Source of the DNA: Thermoflexus hugenholtzii
GTDB lineage: Bacteria > Chloroflexota > Anaerolineae > Thermoflexales > Thermoflexaceae
Length of the DNA: 64,000 bases
Direction of reading: 5' to 3'
NCBI RefSeq assembly: GCF_018771565.1
Contig: NZ_CP076326.1
Coordinates: forward strand, 1,736,001 to 1,800,000
The notes beneath the pieces are model-generated. The model was not told where the DNA came from. It searched no databases and saw nothing but the letters and a program-made list of their open reading frames with translations. Within the stretch, counting starts at the first letter, position 1, and each line of letters opens with the position of its first letter. The position numbers and the translations under genes were made by a program. Below, one piece after another: positions 9,675 to 39,596 of this stretch.

Positions 9675-10565
9675 ATGCTTCGGGGATCATCGCCCCGGCT
9701 CGGGCTGCTGATCCTGCTTCTGATCGGGGCCTGCCGTCCTTCCGCCCCGGCCGGGGGGCGGACTTTCGACGGCCGGGAGGCCTTCCGCCACGTGCAGGCC
9801 CAGCTGGCCCTGGGTCCCCGCTATCCCGGAAGCCCGGGATGGGAAGCGGTGCAGCGTTACATTGAGGAACACGTAACCCGCGAGGGCTGGGCCTTCGAGG
9901 TTCAGCCTTTCGCCGCCGCGGGGCTCCCCGGCCGCAACCTGATCGCCCGGGCCGGTCGAGGGCCGGTCCTCGTGATCGGGGCCCACTACGACACCCGACG
10001 CCGGGCGGATCGGGATCCCGAGCGTCCCGATGATCCGGTGCCGGGGGCCAACGATGGGGCCAGCGGGGTGGCCGTGCTCCTGGAGCTGGCCCGGGTCCTG
10101 GACCGTCCCCGTCTGCGCCAGGAGGTGTGGCTGGTCTTCTTCGACGCCGAGGATCAGGGAGGCCTGGAGGGCCGGCCCTGGATCCTCGGCTCCACCCACT
10201 TCGCCGCCACCCTGGCGGTGACCCCCACGGCGATGATCCTGGTGGACATGGTCGGGGATGCCGATCCCCAGTTCTACTACGAACAGCACTCGGATCCCGC
10301 CCTGCGGGAGCAGCTGTGGCGGATCGCGGCCGAGCTGGGCTATAGGTCCTGGTTCATCCCCGAGCCCCGCTGGGCGCTGATCGATGATCATCTCCCCTTC
10401 CTGCAGCGAGGCATCCCCGCCGTGGACATCATCGACTTCGACTACCCGGCCTGGCACACCACCGCGGACACCCTGGATCGGATCTCCCCGGCCACCCTGG
10501 AAGCGGTCGGCCGCGTGATCGAGCGGTTCGTCGAACGCGAACCGGATGAGCTTGAGGCCCCCTGA
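9675..10565 (+). CDS. M28-family metallopeptidase lipoprotein
   Basis: Secreted, lipid-anchored zinc peptidase, or glutaminyl-cyclase-like enzyme of the same fold. The N-terminus is a lipoprotein signal ending in a lipobox (LLIGAC). M28 motifs follow in order: VIGAHYDTR (Zn His), PGANDGASGVAVLLELARVL (bridging Asp), FFDAEDQGG (Glu/Asp pair), DMVGDADP and the final His in AWHTTADTLD. Length 296 aa is usual. The W-H-T-T-x-D ending is shared with both aminopeptidases and QPCT-like cyclases, so substrate is undecided. Starts 9 bp after apgM. Confidence 0.85.
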   Translation: MLRGSSPRLGLLILLLIGACRPSAPAGGRTFDGREAFRHVQAQLALGPRYPGSPGWEAVQRYIEEHVTREGWAFEVQPFAAAGLPGRNLIARAGRGPVLVIGAHYDTRRRADRDPERPDDPVPGANDGASGVAVLLELARVLDRPRLRQEVWLVFFDAEDQGGLEGRPWILGSTHFAATLAVTPTAMILVDMVGDADPQFYYEQHSDPALREQLWRIAAELGYRSWFIPEPRWALIDDHLPFLQRGIPAVDIIDFDYPAWHTTADTLDRISPATLEAVGRVIERFVEREPDELEAP

Positions 10566-10600
10566 AACCTCCGCGCCTGCTTTCCGGGAGCCTTGAAAAC

Positions 10601-10629
10601 TTGACCCTCGGGAAAGCGAACGATAATCT
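10601..10629 (+). promoter_or_regulatory. Candidate sigma-70 promoter for the HTH regulator
   Basis: TTGACC (10601-10606), 17-base spacer, TAATCT (10624-10629). An AGGAGG ribosome-binding site follows at 10648-10653. Nine bases after it, in the frame of the downstream protein, the codon is ATA (10663); the first conventional in-frame start is GTG at 10747. Confidence 0.55.
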
Positions 10630-10746
10630 TAGGCCGTCCAAAGAATTAGGAGGGCTCAACAGATAGATGGGATCGGCCTGTGGGCACCCTCGCTACTCCG
10701 CGCAGCGCTCCGGACTCTCTTTCCCACCCTGCGTCCGCTCTGCACC

Positions 10747-11370
10747 GTGGAGGAGCTGGACGCCTGCTCCGACGCCTTTCCCCTGCTGCTGGCCGGCGAG
10801 GGGATCTTCCCCTCCGGGTGGCTCCTTGCCACCTTCTTGCGAGAACGAAACCCATATCGGCCCATAGCCCTGTTGGAGAGCCGATGCGCCCCTCTGTCCA
10901 TTTGGATCGCTTGGGAGATCAGCCTGAACGGCATCTTGGATCTCACCCGAACCCCGGAAGAATGGGCGGAGACCCTTTCCCATCTGGCCCGCGGCCAAGC
11001 GGCTTGGTCCTCAGACCTGGTGGATCAAGCGATCGCTTTCGACCGCGCCTGGGGCCGGCGGCTGCGTCGCCTCTCCGCCCGGGACTGGCGGCGCTGGCGG
11101 GATCTGGCCGCCGGGCTTCCCCTCAAGGCCCTGGCGGCCCGCTGGGGTCTCTCCCTTGCTGGCGTGAGCCGTTATCTCCACCGCCTCGCAGCGCGGCTGG
11201 GGGCACCAAGCCTGATGGATTTACGCTCCTGGGGCTTCGTCCTCGGGATCTGGGTGGGCCCTCCCGGTGCCCCCCGTCTGGCCCCTCCCCTCCAGGCCTG
11301 GCGCCTCCTCCGCGCCGCCGGAGACCCGCCCGTTGTCAAAAATCGAAACACCCGCATGTCAAAAACATGA
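10747..11370 (+). CDS. HTH regulator (LuxR/sigma-region-4-like C-terminal helix-turn-helix)
   Basis: 207 aa from GTG 10747. The central-to-C-terminal part has a helix-turn-helix pattern of LuxR/sigma-4 type (LPLKALAARWGLSLAGVSRYL). The N-terminal half is hydrophobic-helical with no recognised ligand domain. The coding frame stays open upstream to a stop just before 10633 and the extra residues look coding-like. The only well-placed ribosome site (10648-10653) points to ATA at 10663, so the true N-terminus may be 28 residues longer. A 23-bp direct repeat and a good promoter lie at the end of the gene, just before the secreted-protein pair it probably controls. Confidence 0.6.
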   Translation: MEELDACSDAFPLLLAGEGIFPSGWLLATFLRERNPYRPIALLESRCAPLSIWIAWEISLNGILDLTRTPEEWAETLSHLARGQAAWSSDLVDQAIAFDRAWGRRLRRLSARDWRRWRDLAAGLPLKALAARWGLSLAGVSRYLHRLAARLGAPSLMDLRSWGFVLGIWVGPPGAPRLAPPLQAWRLLRAAGDPPVVKNRNTRMSKT

Positions 11371-11410
11371 ACACTCCGAGCTGGACACAGCCCCCCAAAC
11401 TCTCTATGAT
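11334..11410 (+). promoter_or_regulatory. 23-bp tandem operator repeat plus promoter for the secreted-protein pair
   Basis: Two direct copies beginning TGTCAAAAA at 11334 and 11357 share the later block AACACYC; the period is 23 bp, about two helix turns. Immediately downstream is TGGACA (11382-11387), a 17-base spacer and TATGAT (11405-11410). Repeats abutting the -35 are in the position used by activators. The repeat overlaps the 3' end of the HTH gene, which is the obvious candidate to bind it. Confidence 0.55.
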
Positions 11411-11459
11411 TGGACTCAGAAAGCCCCTCCTCAAACCCGCTATCCGGAGGAAACAATAT

Positions 11460-13034
11460 ATGAACAACCGGAAACGCGGGGTGCTCCGATGGCTCCTGCT
11501 CGGCGCGCTGGGCAGCCTGGCCCTGACCCAGGCCCTGGCCCAGGCCCAGACCTCAGAACCCCCCCTCACCTGGCAAACCTGTAGCGCATGCCCGGAGCCG
11601 CCCGAAATCGCCTTCTCAGGCGCCCCCCTCTGGCGAGGGACCGCCGTAACCAATATCCTGCACCTGGGACACCCTCAGGTTCCAGAAAGGGCCAGCCAGA
11701 ACACCAGCATCCACGGAGCCTCCCTCCCCCTGCCCCCCGCCTGGGGCTATCGGGTGGCGTTCACCTTCACCCTCGCCACCTGGGATTCTTATAACGCCCC
11801 GGGGACCCCCAACCCCCCTTACAACGGTGGAACCGGTTATTGGGATTCGTTCTCCGTGAGCCTCTCCAACGCCCCTTACTGGGCCCTCCCACTCTCCGAT
11901 CCCCTGGGAGACAACGACCCCCTGCGCCTGGGCTTCCTGTGGGGCGGCACCTCCTACGGAGACGGCTTCCTGGAAACCCGGATGGGAAGCGAGCGAGTGT
12001 TCCTGGAGGCCAGGCCCTGGGCTCCCAACTTCCTCAATGTGGTGCTGGACACCGCCACCCTGCCCGCGGCCAATCACAACTATCCCTCCTGGGGCACCGT
12101 TCGCCTTCAGTGGATCGATCCCCTCACCACCCTCTCCCGCTATGTGGCGCGAAAAGATCAGCTCTCCCTCGAAACCTTCCGGGCCTGGGGCTGCGCCCGA
12201 GGAGAATCCCTCCCCCCGTGGGGCTGGGGCACCGTCATCCTGGACTTCGGATATCCCCGGATGCAGAATGGAGAATATGGAGCAGCAACCCTCGTTGATT
12301 TCACTTTTGTTTCCACTACGACCATCGTCACTCTGACCCGAAGCTTTCTGGATGGCTTTGCGGAGTGTAATGGAACCGCCCGGCTTTATCTGGCTTTGGG
12401 CGTTAACAATGCCAGCGAGGCCGTGACCCGGGCGCACGGGCGAGCATGGGCGCAGATGATCAACCGGCTTAACCAGGACGTCTGGGATAACCCCCACTGG
12501 CTGGGGCGCTTCTGGGTCCTGGGCGCCATCGATGCGGAGCCGGGCTGGAATTCTTCCCAGGCCACCCGGGAGTGGGTGGAGGGCTATACCGAGGTCGCCG
12601 ACCTCCTCGACCTCGGCTCCTACCTGCTCAACTTCGGCTCCTGCGATGGCTGCCCGTTCCGGGGATGCCCTTCCTGTCAGCCTTCCAATGGGTGGACCCT
12701 GGAGGATCTCTGGTATATCTCCTGGGGCGCAGAGGCAGCGGAGCCGTTCCCTGAAATTTACCTCACAAATGGAGTGAACGCAGAACAATGGTTCCACGTC
12801 GCCCGCTACGGCCTGGAAACCCATCAACGCGTGATGATCTTCACCGGTGTGCTGACCACCAGGACCGCCTGTCAGGAGACAAGGGATGAACAATGTCAAA
12901 CCACGGAAAGGCGGGCGGGCATCGATAACCAGCCCATGGAAGGTTACCTGCAGATGCATCGGATCCTGTCATCTCATCCTATCCTATCGCAAGCCTACCC
13001 TCGCTTTTCATCAGACATCTCGTGGGAGAGGTGA
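11460..13034 (+). CDS. Secreted protein of unknown function (signal peptide, ~524 aa)
   Basis: GGAGG lies 8 bases before ATG 11460. The N-terminus is a classical signal peptide (RWLLLGALGSLALTQALAQA). The first ~270 residues are beta-rich and aromatic, like a jelly-roll or lectin-like domain. The second half (from about VTLTRSFLDGFAEC) has alternating hydrophobic strands and helices and includes a Cys-rich insertion (CDGCPFRGCPSC). The pattern VLGAIDAEPGWN and VNAEQWFHVARYGLETHQRVMIFTG resembles TIM-barrel glycoside hydrolases, but no catalytic pair can be assigned, so no enzyme name is given. The preceding long open frame back to 10680 is not coding; it runs through the regulator gene in another frame. 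The next gene starts 3 bp later. Confidence 0.7.
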   Translation: MNNRKRGVLRWLLLGALGSLALTQALAQAQTSEPPLTWQTCSACPEPPEIAFSGAPLWRGTAVTNILHLGHPQVPERASQNTSIHGASLPLPPAWGYRVAFTFTLATWDSYNAPGTPNPPYNGGTGYWDSFSVSLSNAPYWALPLSDPLGDNDPLRLGFLWGGTSYGDGFLETRMGSERVFLEARPWAPNFLNVVLDTATLPAANHNYPSWGTVRLQWIDPLTTLSRYVARKDQLSLETFRAWGCARGESLPPWGWGTVILDFGYPRMQNGEYGAATLVDFTFVSTTTIVTLTRSFLDGFAECNGTARLYLALGVNNASEAVTRAHGRAWAQMINRLNQDVWDNPHWLGRFWVLGAIDAEPGWNSSQATREWVEGYTEVADLLDLGSYLLNFGSCDGCPFRGCPSCQPSNGWTLEDLWYISWGAEAAEPFPEIYLTNGVNAEQWFHVARYGLETHQRVMIFTGVLTTRTACQETRDEQCQTTERRAGIDNQPMEGYLQMHRILSSHPILSQAYPRFSSDISWER

Positions 13035-13037
13035 GCG

Positions 13038-14939
13038 ATGGCGCGTTCTCCCTTCCCCAAACGGCGATGGCTTCTTCCCCTCCTCCAGGGAGGCTTGCTC
13101 CTCATGCTGGGGATCGGACTGTGGGCGCTCCTGACCCAGCCCCCTCACCTCAGGCGCACCGGCCCTGCCCAGAGCGTCCAGGAACCCACCCTCCATCCAG
13201 CGGACGCCACCAAGGTCTTCCCCCTCACCCGCCTAGCTGCTACCAAAACCGCTATTCCATTCTGGCTCTATCCCTCCCCCACCCCTGTCTGGCGGCCCAC
13301 CCCCGGCCCCAGCCCCACGCCCGCTTATTCTTTCCGTGTCTTCGGCACCCCTCTGGGCAAGGGCTTCCTCAACCTCACCGGCCTCCCCATCGCCATGCTC
13401 GCCGGCGGCTGGCCCGAGAATGAATGGATCACCGTCTCCCCCGATGGCCGCCGCCAAACCATCGTCTTCGCCGGATCCGAAATGGAACGGGATCCTCTTA
13501 CAACCACTCGTCTCCCCTCCCCCCAGGGCCAGCTCCACCTCGTGGTCACCGTCTACGACCCCTCCCAACCTGAGAGCGTCTATGGCGGGACCCTCGTGGA
13601 GGCGGTCACTTACCCCACCCCCCGGGCGGTGGGGCCCGTCTTCATCGTCGATGTGGAAAACTCCATCCTCATCCTCCAGCCCATCACCACCCCCAACCCC
13701 TACACCGACCCTGGCCATCCGGTGGAGGATCGCTTCTACTTCGACCTCGCCACCCGCCGCTTCCTCGACTGCCTCCCCCGCGACGACTTCAACCGCCCCG
13801 ACGGCCCTCTCGGCCCCCACTGGTCCGGCCTCACCCACCCCACCCACCTGGCCCTCGAACACGGCACCCTCACCGCCCGCCAGGGCGGCTGGGCCTTCTG
13901 GAACCCCCACGGCACCGCCGACCCCCTCCCCGCCAACCAGGAAGCCTGCCTCACCCTCGCCCGCCTCGACCCCGGCGCCTCCGTCCACCTCCTCCTCAAA
14001 TCCCAAAGCCCCCACTGGACCGGCGCCGGCACCCTCGCCCTCCACCTGAACCCCCAATCCGGCCGCCTGCACGTGCAATCCTTCCACCCCCAAACCGGAT
14101 GGGTCGAACACGCCGCTTGGCCCCTCTCCCCCCAACCCGGCGATCGCCTCCGCGCCCGCGCCTGGGCCGACGGCTCCCTCGAAGTCTTCTACAACGACCA
14201 GCGCCTCGGCCGCGTTCCCACCACCCCCTTCTTCATCGGCCGCGGCGGCTGGATCGGCCTCGAGCTCGCCAACGCCGCCATCGACAACTTCGGCGGCGGC
14301 TGGGGCAACCACCCCCTCCTCCGGGAAGCCCTCCAATGGTCCTGCGAAGACCCGGAGAACATGTTCGCCTTCTGCCAGACCGATGATTTTGAGGGAGAAG
14401 CCGGAACCTTCGTCGGATCCGCCTGGACGGAGCGGATGGGCGACTGGGGCCGCCAGAACGGCGCCCTCCTCCCCCAGACCGCCAGCGGAGAACACCTCCT
14501 CACCTTCAATGGCTGGCGTTTCCGGGACGGTCGGGCAGCAGCCCGCCTCCGCCTGGAAGGATCCACCGGCATCCTGGGCCTGGGCATCCGCCTCGGCGGC
14601 TACGGGGAAGAGGGCCGGCCCACCCGCGGCTACCTGGCCGAGGTCAGCCCCGAGGGCGCCGTCCAGCTGTGGCGGGTGAGCGATTGGACCCTCCTGGGCC
14701 AGACGGCCCTGCCCGGCTTCACCCCCGGCGCCTGGCTCACCCTGGGGGTGGAGGCCGTGGGAACCACCATGACGGTGACCGTGGGCGGGCAGCCCGTGCT
14801 CCAGGCCCAGGATGACACCTTCGCAGAAGGGGAGGTGGGAATCTGGTCCTACGCACCCCCCGCCCCCACCGCCCACCCCGTGGATGCCTTCTCCTTCTTC
14901 CCACGCCAGGTCGCGGTCGAATTCCCCCTCACACCCTGA
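13038..14939 (+). CDS. Large exported protein with two LamG/DUF1080-like beta-sandwich domains
   Basis: 633 aa; one N-terminal membrane span (LLPLLQGGLLLMLGIGLWALL) acts as signal anchor, then a Pro/Thr-rich linker (about residues 80-95), a domain of unknown type, and two repeats resembling laminin-G/3-keto-disaccharide-hydrolase-like sandwiches. Each repeat starts with an acidic-aromatic strand (DDFNRPDGPLGPHWSG, DDFEGEAGTFVGSAW) and ends with an AIDNF or VDAFSF strand. The unusually C-rich coding strand gives strong codon bias and many false antisense frames. The start is 3 bp after the stop of the preceding secreted protein, so the two are probably translated together. Likely a carbohydrate-binding or cell-surface protein. 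Confidence 0.7.
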   Translation: MARSPFPKRRWLLPLLQGGLLLMLGIGLWALLTQPPHLRRTGPAQSVQEPTLHPADATKVFPLTRLAATKTAIPFWLYPSPTPVWRPTPGPSPTPAYSFRVFGTPLGKGFLNLTGLPIAMLAGGWPENEWITVSPDGRRQTIVFAGSEMERDPLTTTRLPSPQGQLHLVVTVYDPSQPESVYGGTLVEAVTYPTPRAVGPVFIVDVENSILILQPITTPNPYTDPGHPVEDRFYFDLATRRFLDCLPRDDFNRPDGPLGPHWSGLTHPTHLALEHGTLTARQGGWAFWNPHGTADPLPANQEACLTLARLDPGASVHLLLKSQSPHWTGAGTLALHLNPQSGRLHVQSFHPQTGWVEHAAWPLSPQPGDRLRARAWADGSLEVFYNDQRLGRVPTTPFFIGRGGWIGLELANAAIDNFGGGWGNHPLLREALQWSCEDPENMFAFCQTDDFEGEAGTFVGSAWTERMGDWGRQNGALLPQTASGEHLLTFNGWRFRDGRAAARLRLEGSTGILGLGIRLGGYGEEGRPTRGYLAEVSPEGAVQLWRVSDWTLLGQTALPGFTPGAWLTLGVEAVGTTMTVTVGGQPVLQAQDDTFAEGEVGIWSYAPPAPTAHPVDAFSFFPRQVAVEFPLTP

Positions 14940-15202: not shown

Positions 15203-16198
15203 ATGCCGGAGCGCGTCGCCCTTTACCTTCAGGACGCCCACGATCTGCGGGAGGCCATGCGCTACGTGCAATACGCCGAACAGCGCGGCTTCGAGGCCGT
15301 CTGGCAGGCCGAATCCCGGCTGGTCCGCGACGCCATCGTCCCCATGGCCGCCTACGCCGCCGTCACCGAACGGATCAAAGTGGCCTCCGGCGTGATCAAC
15401 AACTGGACCCGCAACCCGGCCCTGATCGCCGCCACCTTCCTCACCCTGGATGACCTCGCCCCCAACCGCATCATCCTCGGCATCGGCGCCTGGTGGGATC
15501 CCCTGGCCTCCAAGGTCGGCATCAAGCGGGAGAAGCCCCTTAAGGCCATGCGCGAGGTGGTCACCGTGGTGCGCGACCTCCTGGCCATGAAGCGGGTGAC
15601 CTTCCACGGCGAGTTCGTCCATCTGACCGACGTGGAGCTGGATGTGGTGTATGGACGCCGGGAGCCTCGCAACGTCCCCATCTACATCGGGGCCACCGGC
15701 ATGCAGATGATGGAGCTGGCCGGTGAGATCGCCGACGGCGTGTTGCTCAACTATCTGGTCTCCCCGAAATACAACGAACTGGCCCTCCATCACCTGGAGA
15801 TCGGGGCGAAGCGGGCCGGCCGCCGCATCGAGGACATCGACCGCCCGCAGCTGGTGGTGTGCTCCGTCGACCACGACCGCAAGAAAGCGCTGGACAGCGC
15901 CCGCAAGCTGGTGACCCAGTATCTGGGCCAGCAGCCTCACATCATGAAGGCCAGCGGGGTGCCCCAGGAGCTGCTGGACGAGATCGGGCGCGTCCTCACA
16001 TGGCCGGCCACCCCCGAGCAGATCGAGCGGGCCATGGAGCTGGTCCCCGACGATATCGTCCAGCTGATCACCGCCAGCGGGTCGCCTGAGGAGGTCCGCC
16101 GCAAGGTGGACGAATATCGCGCCGCCGGGTGCACCTGCCCGGTCCTCTACCCGCTGGGGGATGTGAAGCTGATGATCGACATCTTCGCCCAGGCGTAA
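15203..16198 (+). CDS. LLM-class flavin/F420-dependent oxidoreductase
   Basis: 331-aa TIM-barrel oxidoreductase of the bacterial luciferase-like superfamily, close in layout to 5,10-methylene-H4MPT reductase (Mer)-like and F420-dependent members. Recognisable stretches are [17 protein letters not shown], the non-prolyl cis-peptide region after [29 protein letters not shown] and [30 protein letters not shown] precedes the ATG at 15203. Cofactor (F420 or FMN) and substrate cannot be read from sequence alone. The thioesterase gene begins 9 bp later, suggesting an operon with it and the CoxM-like protein. Confidence 0.8.
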
Positions 16199-37248: not shown

Positions 37249-38475
37249 TTAATAATCTAGCCCTGGAACGCCACCACCATATTTCCAGAAACGCTCGTAT
37301 ACACGTCGGTAATTTGGATAGCCTGATAGTTGACGACGCTCTCGCCCGTAGACTATACTCGGAGGCCGTCCCAAAGGATCCGTAGGATCCAGTCGATACC
37401 TTAAGCGACGATTGAAATCAGGGCCAATGTCTACTACCTCCCGTCCCTCTCTCTTGACTGTATTTATAAATTCATCGTTGAGTTCCGGAGTCCACTTGCG
37501 TCCACCCAACCAGTCATCGATGGTCTCTCCTCCGATCTTCTGGGCATACCTTCGCACGCGCTCCATATTCTCTCCGATGACGATGGGCGGCTTCCGGATG
37601 GCTGCAGACGCGACTTCCTCCACAGCCTGTCGTGTGGCTTGTTCTCCGATCTCCCGGCCTGCCTTCAAGATCCCTTTCCGGGCCAGATCATCGAGGGGCA
37701 GGGTGACCGGGAGCAGGTCATCGGGCTCGGCGGCCTCGGTGACGGCGATGAGGGCCAGGTTGGCGGCGGCTTCGGCCCTGGCCGCCTCCGGGGCGTTGGG
37801 ATCGTTCAGCACCCGCAGGCTCTGGTAGGCATCCCATGCCGTCCAGCCGTAGTCGATGATCTTGAGGGCGATGATTGCCCCGGCCACCAGGAGGGGAACG
37901 ACCGGGAGATGCCCACCCCCATCGACGTAGCGCAAAGGGTTGTTGTAAACATAGGCATACCGATGGAGCGCTTGCGGGTTCCCCGGCTCGGGCACCAGCG
38001 GATCCGGCTGCAGGAAGCGGCCCAGGGCGGGGTCGTAGAAGCGGGCCTTGTAGTCATACAAGCCAAGAGAAGCCTCCCACCGCTGGCCGGTGAACCTCTT
38101 GTCGGTGACCCAAACCCCGCTCTCTACCCGAATCGCCCCATATGGAAGATACCGCGTGACCCCCGCCGGGCTTCCGCCCTGCGCCAGCACCGTGACGCTG
38201 CCCAGATGGTCCCCCACGGCCGCATCGACTGTGCTCCCCTCCCGCACCGCCACCGTCTCGCCGCCCAGCCGATAGACCTTCCGCACCACCCCGCCCCGGA
38301 CCTCATTGCCCTCATCCACGACCACCGTGCGGACTCCCCCCACCTCCCGCACGACCCGGTTCCCCTCAGGGTCATACCGGAAGGAAGCCACCCGCTCGGC
38401 GCCCCGCCACGCTTCCTTCAGCCGGTTCTCGGGGTCGTAGACGTAGCCCCATTCCACCCCGCCCACGGCGCGGGG
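37249..38475 (-). CDS. RHS core fragment with toxin tip 2 (module 2), 5' end cut by IS insertion
   Basis: Core from GVEWGYVYDPENRLKEAW to LRYVDGGGHLPVVP, then a pre-toxin segment shared with the main RHS gene (IIDYGWTAWDAYQS, LPVTLPLDDLARKG) and an unrelated tip: PPIVIGENMERVRRYAQKIG, GGETIDDWLGG, REGREVVDIGPDFNRRL, GRERRQLSGYPNYRRVYERF and GGVPGLDY. The GENM...DIGPDF...ER..GY..YRR..E pattern looks like a conserved toxin family, activity unknown to me. The minus-strand frame stays open through the IS element to 39240, but that extension is not RHS. In the pre-insertion sequence the core would have begun about 15 bp after the immunity 1 stop. Confidence 0.65.
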   Translation of the reverse strand, partial: PRAVGGVEWGYVYDPENRLKEAWRGAERVASFRYDPEGNRVVREVGGVRTVVVDEGNEVRGGVVRKVYRLGGETVAVREGSTVDAAVGDHLGSVTVLAQGGSPAGVTRYLPYGAIRVESGVWVTDKRFTGQRWEASLGLYDYKARFYDPALGRFLQPDPLVPEPGNPQALHRYAYVYNNPLRYVDGGGHLPVVPLLVAGAIIALKIIDYGWTAWDAYQSLRVLNDPNAPEAARAEAAANLALIAVTEAAEPDDLLPVTLPLDDLARKGILKAGREIGEQATRQAVEEVASAAIRKPPIVIGENMERVRRYAQKIGGETIDDWLGGRKWTPELNDEFINTVKREGREVVDIGPDFNRRLRYRLDPTDPLGRPPSIVYGRERRQLSGYPNYRRVYERFWKYGGGVPGLDY

Positions 38476-38506
38476 GGTAATCACCCCCCTGAGTAGTGCT
38501 CGGTGG

Positions 38507-38512
38507 TATAAT
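38507..38512 (+). promoter_or_regulatory. Transposase -10 box
   Basis: TGGTATAAT (extended -10) followed by CGGGG, just inside the left end of the IS; ATG 38543 follows with GGAGGTG at 38530. Confidence 0.55.
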
Positions 38513-38542
38513 CGGGGCCAGATTCCGACGGAGGTGGGCCCG

Positions 38543-39596
38543 ATGAATCGAAAGCCCAATTCCCAGAACCCCCCCTGCCCTCGCTGTGGGGCCACCCATG
38601 TGGTAAAGAACGGCAGTAAGGGTGGGCGGCCCCGTTGGGTCTGTCGGAACTGCGGGCGCTCGTTTGGGCCTACCCTGGGCACGGCGATGTATCGCTTGCG
38701 TGTGACCCCTGCGGAAGTGGCGCGCACCCTGCTGGTGGTGATGCGTCGGGGGAGCCTGAGCGCCGCTGAGGAGATCACCGGCCACAAATATGAAACCATT
38801 GGCCGATGGCTCCGGATGGCCGCCCAACACGCTGAGGCCCTCACCGAGGTCCTGGTCCACGACCTGCATTTGAGCGAGGTCGAGGTGGATGCTTTCTGGT
38901 CGTTTGTCAAAAAAAGTGTCCAGAGGCTGGAGATCCAGACGCCTCGGCGGGCGGGGTGGGCCCGCGTTGGGGATGTTTGAGCCAGGACCGGGCGACTCGT
39001 TTTGTGGTGGCGTGGGGCTTTGGGTCTTCGGAGGATGAGGTCGCGCCGAAGGTGGTGGCGCAGACCCGCCAGCGCACATCTGGCAGGAGGGGCGTGATCT
39101 GGATCAGCGATGGACGGCCGGTCTACCGACGGGCGGTTCGTCAGGTCTATCGGGACGCGCAACCGACGGGAAAGCGGGGGCGTCCGCCCCTGGTGCTCAC
39201 GCCTGGGGTGGGGTTGACGCAAGCGGTCAAGCGTCGTCATCAGGGCCGGATGGTGCGCGTGGAGGTGCGTCAGGTTCTGGGGAGGCGGTGGATTGCCCCT
39301 ATCCGGTGCATGAGGAACGGTTGAATGGCATGTTGCGCGATCGGTTGAATGCGCTGACGCGTAAGACCCATGCCTTTGCGAAGACGACAGGGACCTGGGA
39401 TGCGCTGGTGATCCTCTGTTTGTTTGAGCACAACTGGCTGCGGCCCCATCGGGCCTTGCGGGAAGCGGGGGAGGGCCTGCCGGAGGGGCGGCGGTATCGG
39501 CCGCGGACGCCGGCGATGGCCATCGGGTTGACCGATCATATCTGGACCTGGGAAGAGTTCTTGACCTTCAAGCATTATCAATACCAAAAGGAGTGA
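38543..39596 (+). pseudogene. IS1-family transposase in three frames
   Basis: N-terminal part (38543-38978): zinc ribbon CPRCGATHVV...CRNCGRSF, HTH, then VEVDAFWSFVKK with the first catalytic Asp. The protein continues in the -1 frame after seven A residues (38909-38915), reading KKCPEAGDPDAS then LSQDRATRFVVAWGFGSSED and the second Asp in VIWISDG. A second -1 change at the G-run near 39281-39284 is needed to join the third part (AVDCPYPVHEERLNGMLRDR) with the catalytic Glu. The first shift looks like programmed frameshifting of IS1 insAB type; the second suggests an inactive copy or an assembly indel. Confidence 0.75.

Follow-up and report, generated by a model that had tools for sequence, protein, structure and literature searches.

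A Candidate Local Activator with Operator-Like Repeats in the End of Its Own Gene, Upstream of Exchangeable Genes for Predicted Exported Proteins in Thermoflexus hugenholtzii

The window analysed here is a 64,000-nucleotide stretch of the Thermoflexus hugenholtzii genome (a single 3.32-Mb contig, G000), and comparisons were made within a set of nine same-genus genomes (G000–G008, the window genome included), some of which are drafts. Between two enzyme genes lie a regulator gene, a pair of repeats at its end, a promoter, and two long open reading frames, which we call A and B (Table 1). A sequence-only reading had described this arrangement as a self-contained unit, in which a helix–turn–helix (HTH) protein with its own promoter is followed by a tandem 23-bp repeat at an activator position and by a good promoter that drives two large exported proteins, and had proposed that the whole may be a surface system.

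Table 1. Features of the regulator/A-B locus (positions are those of the window)
Feature	Positions	Strand	Basis
M28 peptidase, left flank of the site	9675..10565	+	Sequence match, neighbour gene
Weak promoter-like TTGACC-N15-GATAAT, upstream of regulator	10601..10627	+	Read directly, absent from scan list
AGGAGGG, ribosome-binding-like	10648..10654	+	Sequence
Regulator, NarL/FixJ-type, putative degenerate receiver and LuxR-type HTH, 235 codons, start uncertain	10663..11370	+	Profile search
Putative operator unit 1, TGTCAAAAATCGAAACAC, within last codons of regulator	11334..11351	+	Repeat found; operator role predicted
Putative operator unit 2, TGTCAAAAACATGAACAC, includes regulator stop codon (11368-11370)	11357..11374	+	Repeat found; operator role predicted
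Promoter TGGACA-N17-TATGAT (TGGACA 11382, TATGAT 11405)	11382..11410	+	Promoter scan
Protein A, 524 aa, predicted exported: signal-like N-terminus, unmodelled ~30-216, conserved C-terminal domain	11460..13034	+	ORF, relatives, model
A residues 217-524: TIM-barrel domain; D358, E360 invariant	12108..13031	+	AlphaFold model, 29-sequence alignment
Protein B, 633 aa, predicted exported: hydrophobic N-terminus	13038..14939	+	ORF; weak 3-keto-disaccharide-hydrolase-type match at 461-596
Luciferase-like monooxygenase, right flank of the site	15203..16198	+	Sequence match, neighbour gene

A five-sequence profile of the regulator (profile A1) was compared with PDB sequences and matched ChrA (7e-14), NarL (5.3e-13), and FixJ (4.2e-11) as well as RcsB, and these matches cover the C-terminal LuxR/GerE HTH. 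The window regulator alone scores 16.2 bits against Pfam GerE, below the cut-off of 23.5, and its paralogue L054 clears that cut-off with 48.4 bits. The profile aligns with ChrA from position 6 onward, and Pfam Response_reg gives no match for the window protein and a sub-threshold match for the paralogue. In alignments read by eye, the phospho-acceptor stretch, LLLAGEGIFPSG, has no Asp (Ala or Glu stands there, depending on the alignment), GLWAPSLL replaces the acidic pair of the receiver, and GILDL replaces its Lys. On these profiles and alignments, the regulator is a NarL/FixJ-type protein with a putative degenerate receiver, and the canonical phosphorylation residues are missing. Because these residues have been lost, the regulator probably needs no partner kinase; a check for one among the genes adjoining the unit met the M28 peptidase and the luciferase-like enzyme. 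The predicted HTH is thus recovered by profile as a LuxR-type domain, but the promoter assigned to the gene is weak and went unlisted by our scan, and the start is non-standard: the position that reads GTG in G001 reads ATA in the window (10663) and ATC in G004, and the first in-frame standard start in the window is GTG 10747. Upstream of the G001 regulator we read TTGACC-N17-TAAAAT.

The tandem repeat proved real. Two TGTCAAAAA units, at 11334 and 11357, are spaced 23 bp apart within 18-nt units that are identical at 14 of 18 positions, and the window has a single such pair (gap 8–20); 100 shuffles gave none. The repeats do come directly at the end of the regulator, as had been described, but they overlap the gene instead of lying between genes: the regulator frame runs to 11370, its final codons make up unit 1 and most of unit 2, and its stop codon falls within unit 2. 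The repeat is not explained by protein coding, since the residues read from one unit differ from those of the other (VKN and MSK). Positions at which the units agree are unchanged in G001 in 28 of 28 cases, compared with 12 of 20 for the other positions (Fisher p 0.0003), although this conserved stretch is in part also coding.

A search for the repeat elsewhere in the genome found copies, but no second pair. TGTCAAAAA occurs 18 times in G000 (reversed control, 1), and these comprise 10 that belong to copies of a single transposon-like sequence (one of them diverged), which we take from reading its sequence to be IS1-like, 6 unrelated singles, and the 2 of the window, the only ones to form a pair. 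With one mismatch allowed, the full operator 18-mer has 6 copies in the nine genomes, making three pairs, in G000, G004, and G001, each directly below one of the three closest regulator orthologues (3 of 9 genomes); none was found elsewhere in the nine genomes. Two-mismatch copies (10 of 16 matches) were excluded from this count because the reversed control also gave 10. With the 18-mer present only at three regulator-linked pairs and two-mismatch copies at control level, the window operator appears to be local. We therefore do not take the copies around the genome to indicate a regulon, since 10 of the 18 are transposon-like and the 18-mer was found only at the three pairs. As a separate observation, an IS1-like transposase (by reading) lies at 38534–39596 of the window, with overlapping frames and a slippery-looking stretch, TTTTGTCAAAAAAA; sequence around it recurs in the genome as 9 near-identical copies and one diverged copy, and the element lies against an RHS-repeat-like reverse-strand frame (37249–39240).

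The promoter below the repeats is as good as had been claimed, matching the consensus at 10 of 12 positions and being the sole sigma-70-like site listed in 10540–11480 (shuffle mean 0.1), and it is followed by the two large open reading frames. Assuming a +1 near 11417, we estimate the unit centres at about −74.5 and −51.5. An activator position is plausible for the repeat, but the centre of the second site lies between the classical class I and class II activator positions.

The same site was then compared across the nine genomes, where it holds the regulator with A and B in two (G000 and G004), the regulator with other cargo in one (G001), a relic in one (G006), and nothing at all in two (G003 and G005), where the M28 and luciferase-like genes adjoin; three genomes fall outside these classes, with contig ends in G002 and one flank not found in G007 and G008. 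The complete unit of G004 is 94.7% identical to the window and has the same promoter sequence, and its regulator protein is 86% identical over residues 47–235; the regulator and A of G004 contain frame breaks, which reflect either decay or assembly error. G001 retains the regulator (76% identical), the repeats, the −35 box, and the −10 position (TGGACA-N17-TACCAT) and lacks A and B. Its cargo comprises several genes, among them those for DCC-like proteins (so labelled from a Pfam match below threshold, E 0.099) and for a matrixin-type metalloprotease, and the same luciferase-like gene follows. The G006 relic (L109:1094–1396) is scrambled between the flanks, with the regulator promoter first, then the tail of B, and then the regulator tail with a decayed operator. 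Similarity of the window DNA to G001 and to this relic stops in both cases at 11387, just past the repeats. Because the operator genomes belong to one genus and the window and G004 are 94.7% identical, these comparisons amount to about two independent observations.

These comparisons bear on the proposed unit in several ways. Its self-contained character held up, in that the repeat pair is found in both other genomes with close regulator orthologues (G004 and G001), and the repeat is kept upstream of the orthologous secreted genes in G004, the one other genome that has orthologues of A and B. Conservation of all four parts was seen in G004, but only the regulator and operator are constant, G001 lacking A and B. 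A fixed four-part surface system was not sustained: the G001 cargo differs, the window repeat is absent from the loci with A-B paralogues (G000 at 2568 kb, and C148 of G002), and a surface location is predicted from the N-termini only. Two further features of this site were observed. Synonymous divergence between the window and G004 (L053) is 0.25 for the regulator, about twice that of the flanking genes (0.13–0.14), and 0.06 for A and 0.09 for B, which makes for an uneven history of the locus, perhaps through gene conversion. A metalloprotease and lipoprotein-like pair behind the window-type regulator of G001 (L106:4362–5998) is 91–92% identical to a pair at L145:3116–4745, a DCC-type locus of the window genome, so the placement of cargo differs between species.

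Paralogues of the regulator were searched for in the nine genomes, giving 24 matches, and 14 of these loci were inspected by reading. Downstream sequence is present for 12 and contains a DCC-like gene in 8 (at least 3 with broken frames), genes with signal-like N-termini in 3, and a presumably transposase-like frame in 1. Group IV regulators (G000 2402 kb and G001 C13) have a dyad, TTCCTCCAAAAATGAGGAA, over the stop codon and a second copy 33 bp on. The dyad TTCCTC-N7-GAGGAA (at most two mismatches) occurs at 14 sites in 4 of the 9 genomes, with a reversed control of 0. Eight of these sites form four pairs 33 bp apart, and all 14 lie upstream of a same-strand DCC-like match, 13 at 47–97 bp and one at 325 bp. 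The sites make up 10 loci, of which 2 have an intact regulator directly upstream, 6 have traces, and 2 have the dyad alone. The traces are regulator-like or tail remains (tblastn E 7e-21 to 0.013), with L231 weakly similar and the shortest, of 14–22 residues, including operator-encoded residues. Of the 10 loci, 6 have an exact TA[AG][AG]AT box 21 bp after the site, 2 have one that differs by a letter (with the distance in L222 taken from a second, imperfect dyad copy), and 2 have none. On the same +1 estimate, the group IV sites centre at about −43. Being an independent group, group IV gives the best support for the window repeats as the putative cognate sites of their regulator.

Groups II and III have GGGGAC-type dyads at the corresponding place, the regulator 3′ end. 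We set these aside as operator proof, as their number across the genome does not clearly exceed the control (7 versus 6 in G000); one is retained at the regulator–DCC junction in G000, G004, and G006. The DCC-like family is itself expanded, with 10 matches in the window genome and 18 in G001. At DCC-like loci L145–L148 (window genome) and L149–L153, many genes are truncated or broken and clustered with other genes, and the proteins vary at the C-terminus and have, by reading, a Tat-like RR motif in mid-protein.

Proteins A and B have N-termini that are hydrophobic by reading, from which export, including a possible surface location, is predicted. Relatives of the C-terminal half of A occur in 43 loci, most of which carry the label Chloroflexota, and in an alignment of A with 28 of these (29 sequences in all) D358 and E360 are invariant in 29 of 29, forming an acidic pair at a barrel-strand end. 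In the AlphaFold model, residues 217–524 form a TIM barrel, a (beta/alpha)8 fold, with high confidence (27 of 31 ten-residue blocks have pLDDT ≥90 over 221–524), and the part for residues ~30–216 is unusable. The top VIA row for the barrel is the beta-1,4-endoglucanase 8zlg_A (Z 12.5, rmsd 4.0 over 239 residues). Many barrels of other kinds than glycosidases come within 1 Z of this score, however, and the first Foldseek row is an adenosine-deaminase-like protein; with scores tied in this way, the order of the fold matches is not evidence. A thus shares the fold and the acidic pair with TIM-barrel glycoside hydrolases but differs from them in sequence: it has no PDB sequence relatives at E 1, and none of the 29 A-family members matches a Pfam glycosidase at E 0.01. 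Golvesin_C is matched by 8 of the 29, and A of the window matches no Pfam family. A may have a carbohydrate-related role. B weakly matches the 3-keto-disaccharide-hydrolase family at residues 461–596 (E 1.5e-4, 22.3 bits, below the 26.8 cut-off); its single-sequence model is unusable (pLDDT 39), and its matches to PDB sequences are at chance level only. At a second locus of G000 (2567.9–2569.5 kb), a group II regulator and an M23 peptidase precede an A-like and a B-like gene, and such genes also stand together in G002; the second-locus B-like gene is linked to B via the G002 copy (48% and 29%). A defence or phage origin of the unit was rejected, as no PADLOC or PHROG match was found at E 0.1.

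We consider it reasonably probable that the regulator is a local activator, likely phosphorylation-independent, with a cognate operator and an exchangeable exported cargo. The regulator would bind the two tandem dyad-like sites, TGTCAAAAAnnnGAACAC, spaced 23 bp apart at the 3′ end of its own coding sequence. As the sites lie directly against the promoter of the operon that follows, the bound regulator would recruit RNA polymerase in a class I/II-like manner and so activate, rather than repress, transcription of the predicted exported proteins A and B. The regulator and operator would be the constant half of the unit, and the exported genes would be cargo that is swapped at a variable site flanked by the M28 and luciferase-like genes.

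Repression or feedback is another possible use for sites that overlap their own gene. The same module might thus contain a repressor, or an autorepressor acting by roadblock, with the repeats blocking RNA polymerase at the A-B promoter until a signal arrives, and a promoter this near to consensus may need no activator, while unit 2 stops just 7 bp short of the −35 box. We regard this as unlikely because both repeats lie entirely upstream of the −35 box and leave the core promoter clear, and because the group IV sites, which are nearer the −10 box and have no recognisable −35 (by reading), show the usual activator layout. Somewhat less likely again is that the regulator is a decaying relic, that A and B are constitutive, and that the repeats are inherited leftovers. 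Decay would fit the ATA and ATC that replace GTG, the frame breaks in G004, and the relic in G006, but the regulator of the window has an unbroken frame of 235 codons, the operator bases are intact, and dN/dS for the regulator is 0.29 versus G001 and 0.33 versus G004 (last 190 codons), values that include constraint predating any loss. It is highly improbable that the repeat serves recombination or integration, marking where cargo is exchanged, instead of being an operator. The shared end of similarity at 11387 with different cargo beyond it would suit such a site, but no recombinase was noticed on reading the genes of the unit, the −10 position is retained in G001, group IV similarity continues past the operator (L224 versus L230, 113 nt at 94.7%), and the sites stand in fixed register to the −10 box.

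The local activator that we favour has several known counterparts. Aspartate-less or pseudo-receiver response regulators (ALR, atypical RR) combine an Asp-lacking receiver-like domain with a DNA-binding output (PMC4395418, PMC12632262). By the definition in the latter source, the window regulator resembles an ALR in having a receiver-like domain without a phosphorylatable Asp and a DNA-binding output, provided that its N-terminal half is a receiver; the passages on ALRs in these sources do not describe cognate sites in the regulators' own 3′ ends or exchangeable exported cargo. Compared with the NarL/FixJ family (NarL, ChrA, RcsB, VraR), the window regulator shares the C-terminal LuxR-type HTH and overall length but is below the Pfam GerE cut-off and is without the phosphorylation residues. 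In pathway-specific local activators, the regulator gene stands beside a single operator and operon. The window regulator likewise adjoins a single operator and operon, but, unlike the case in these activators, the same regulator and operator precede unrelated cargo at the same locus in a sister species. A published description of such a unit was not found among open-licence PMC titles and abstract openings, which is not proof of absence.

More tentatively, we suggest that regulators of this family in the genus may carry their cognate operator inside the 3′ end of their genes and that their regulons may grow when truncated tails, consisting of operator and promoter, come to lie before new exported-protein genes. 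Since the operator is inside the regulator tail, recombination that copies the tail would also copy a working operator. Group IV looks like a regulon that has spread in this way, with 8 of its 10 operator loci preceded by a regulator or tail traces, and, if regulons do grow so, the window might be the single-target case and the G006 relic might show the same process, a possibility that we put forward with some reserve. The locus would thus offer a testable case of bacterial regulon growth in which a binding site moves as part of its regulator's coding tail. It yields candidate regulator/operator pairs, and it points to a family of predicted exported TIM-barrel proteins, mostly from Chloroflexota, whose member in the window has no Pfam family.
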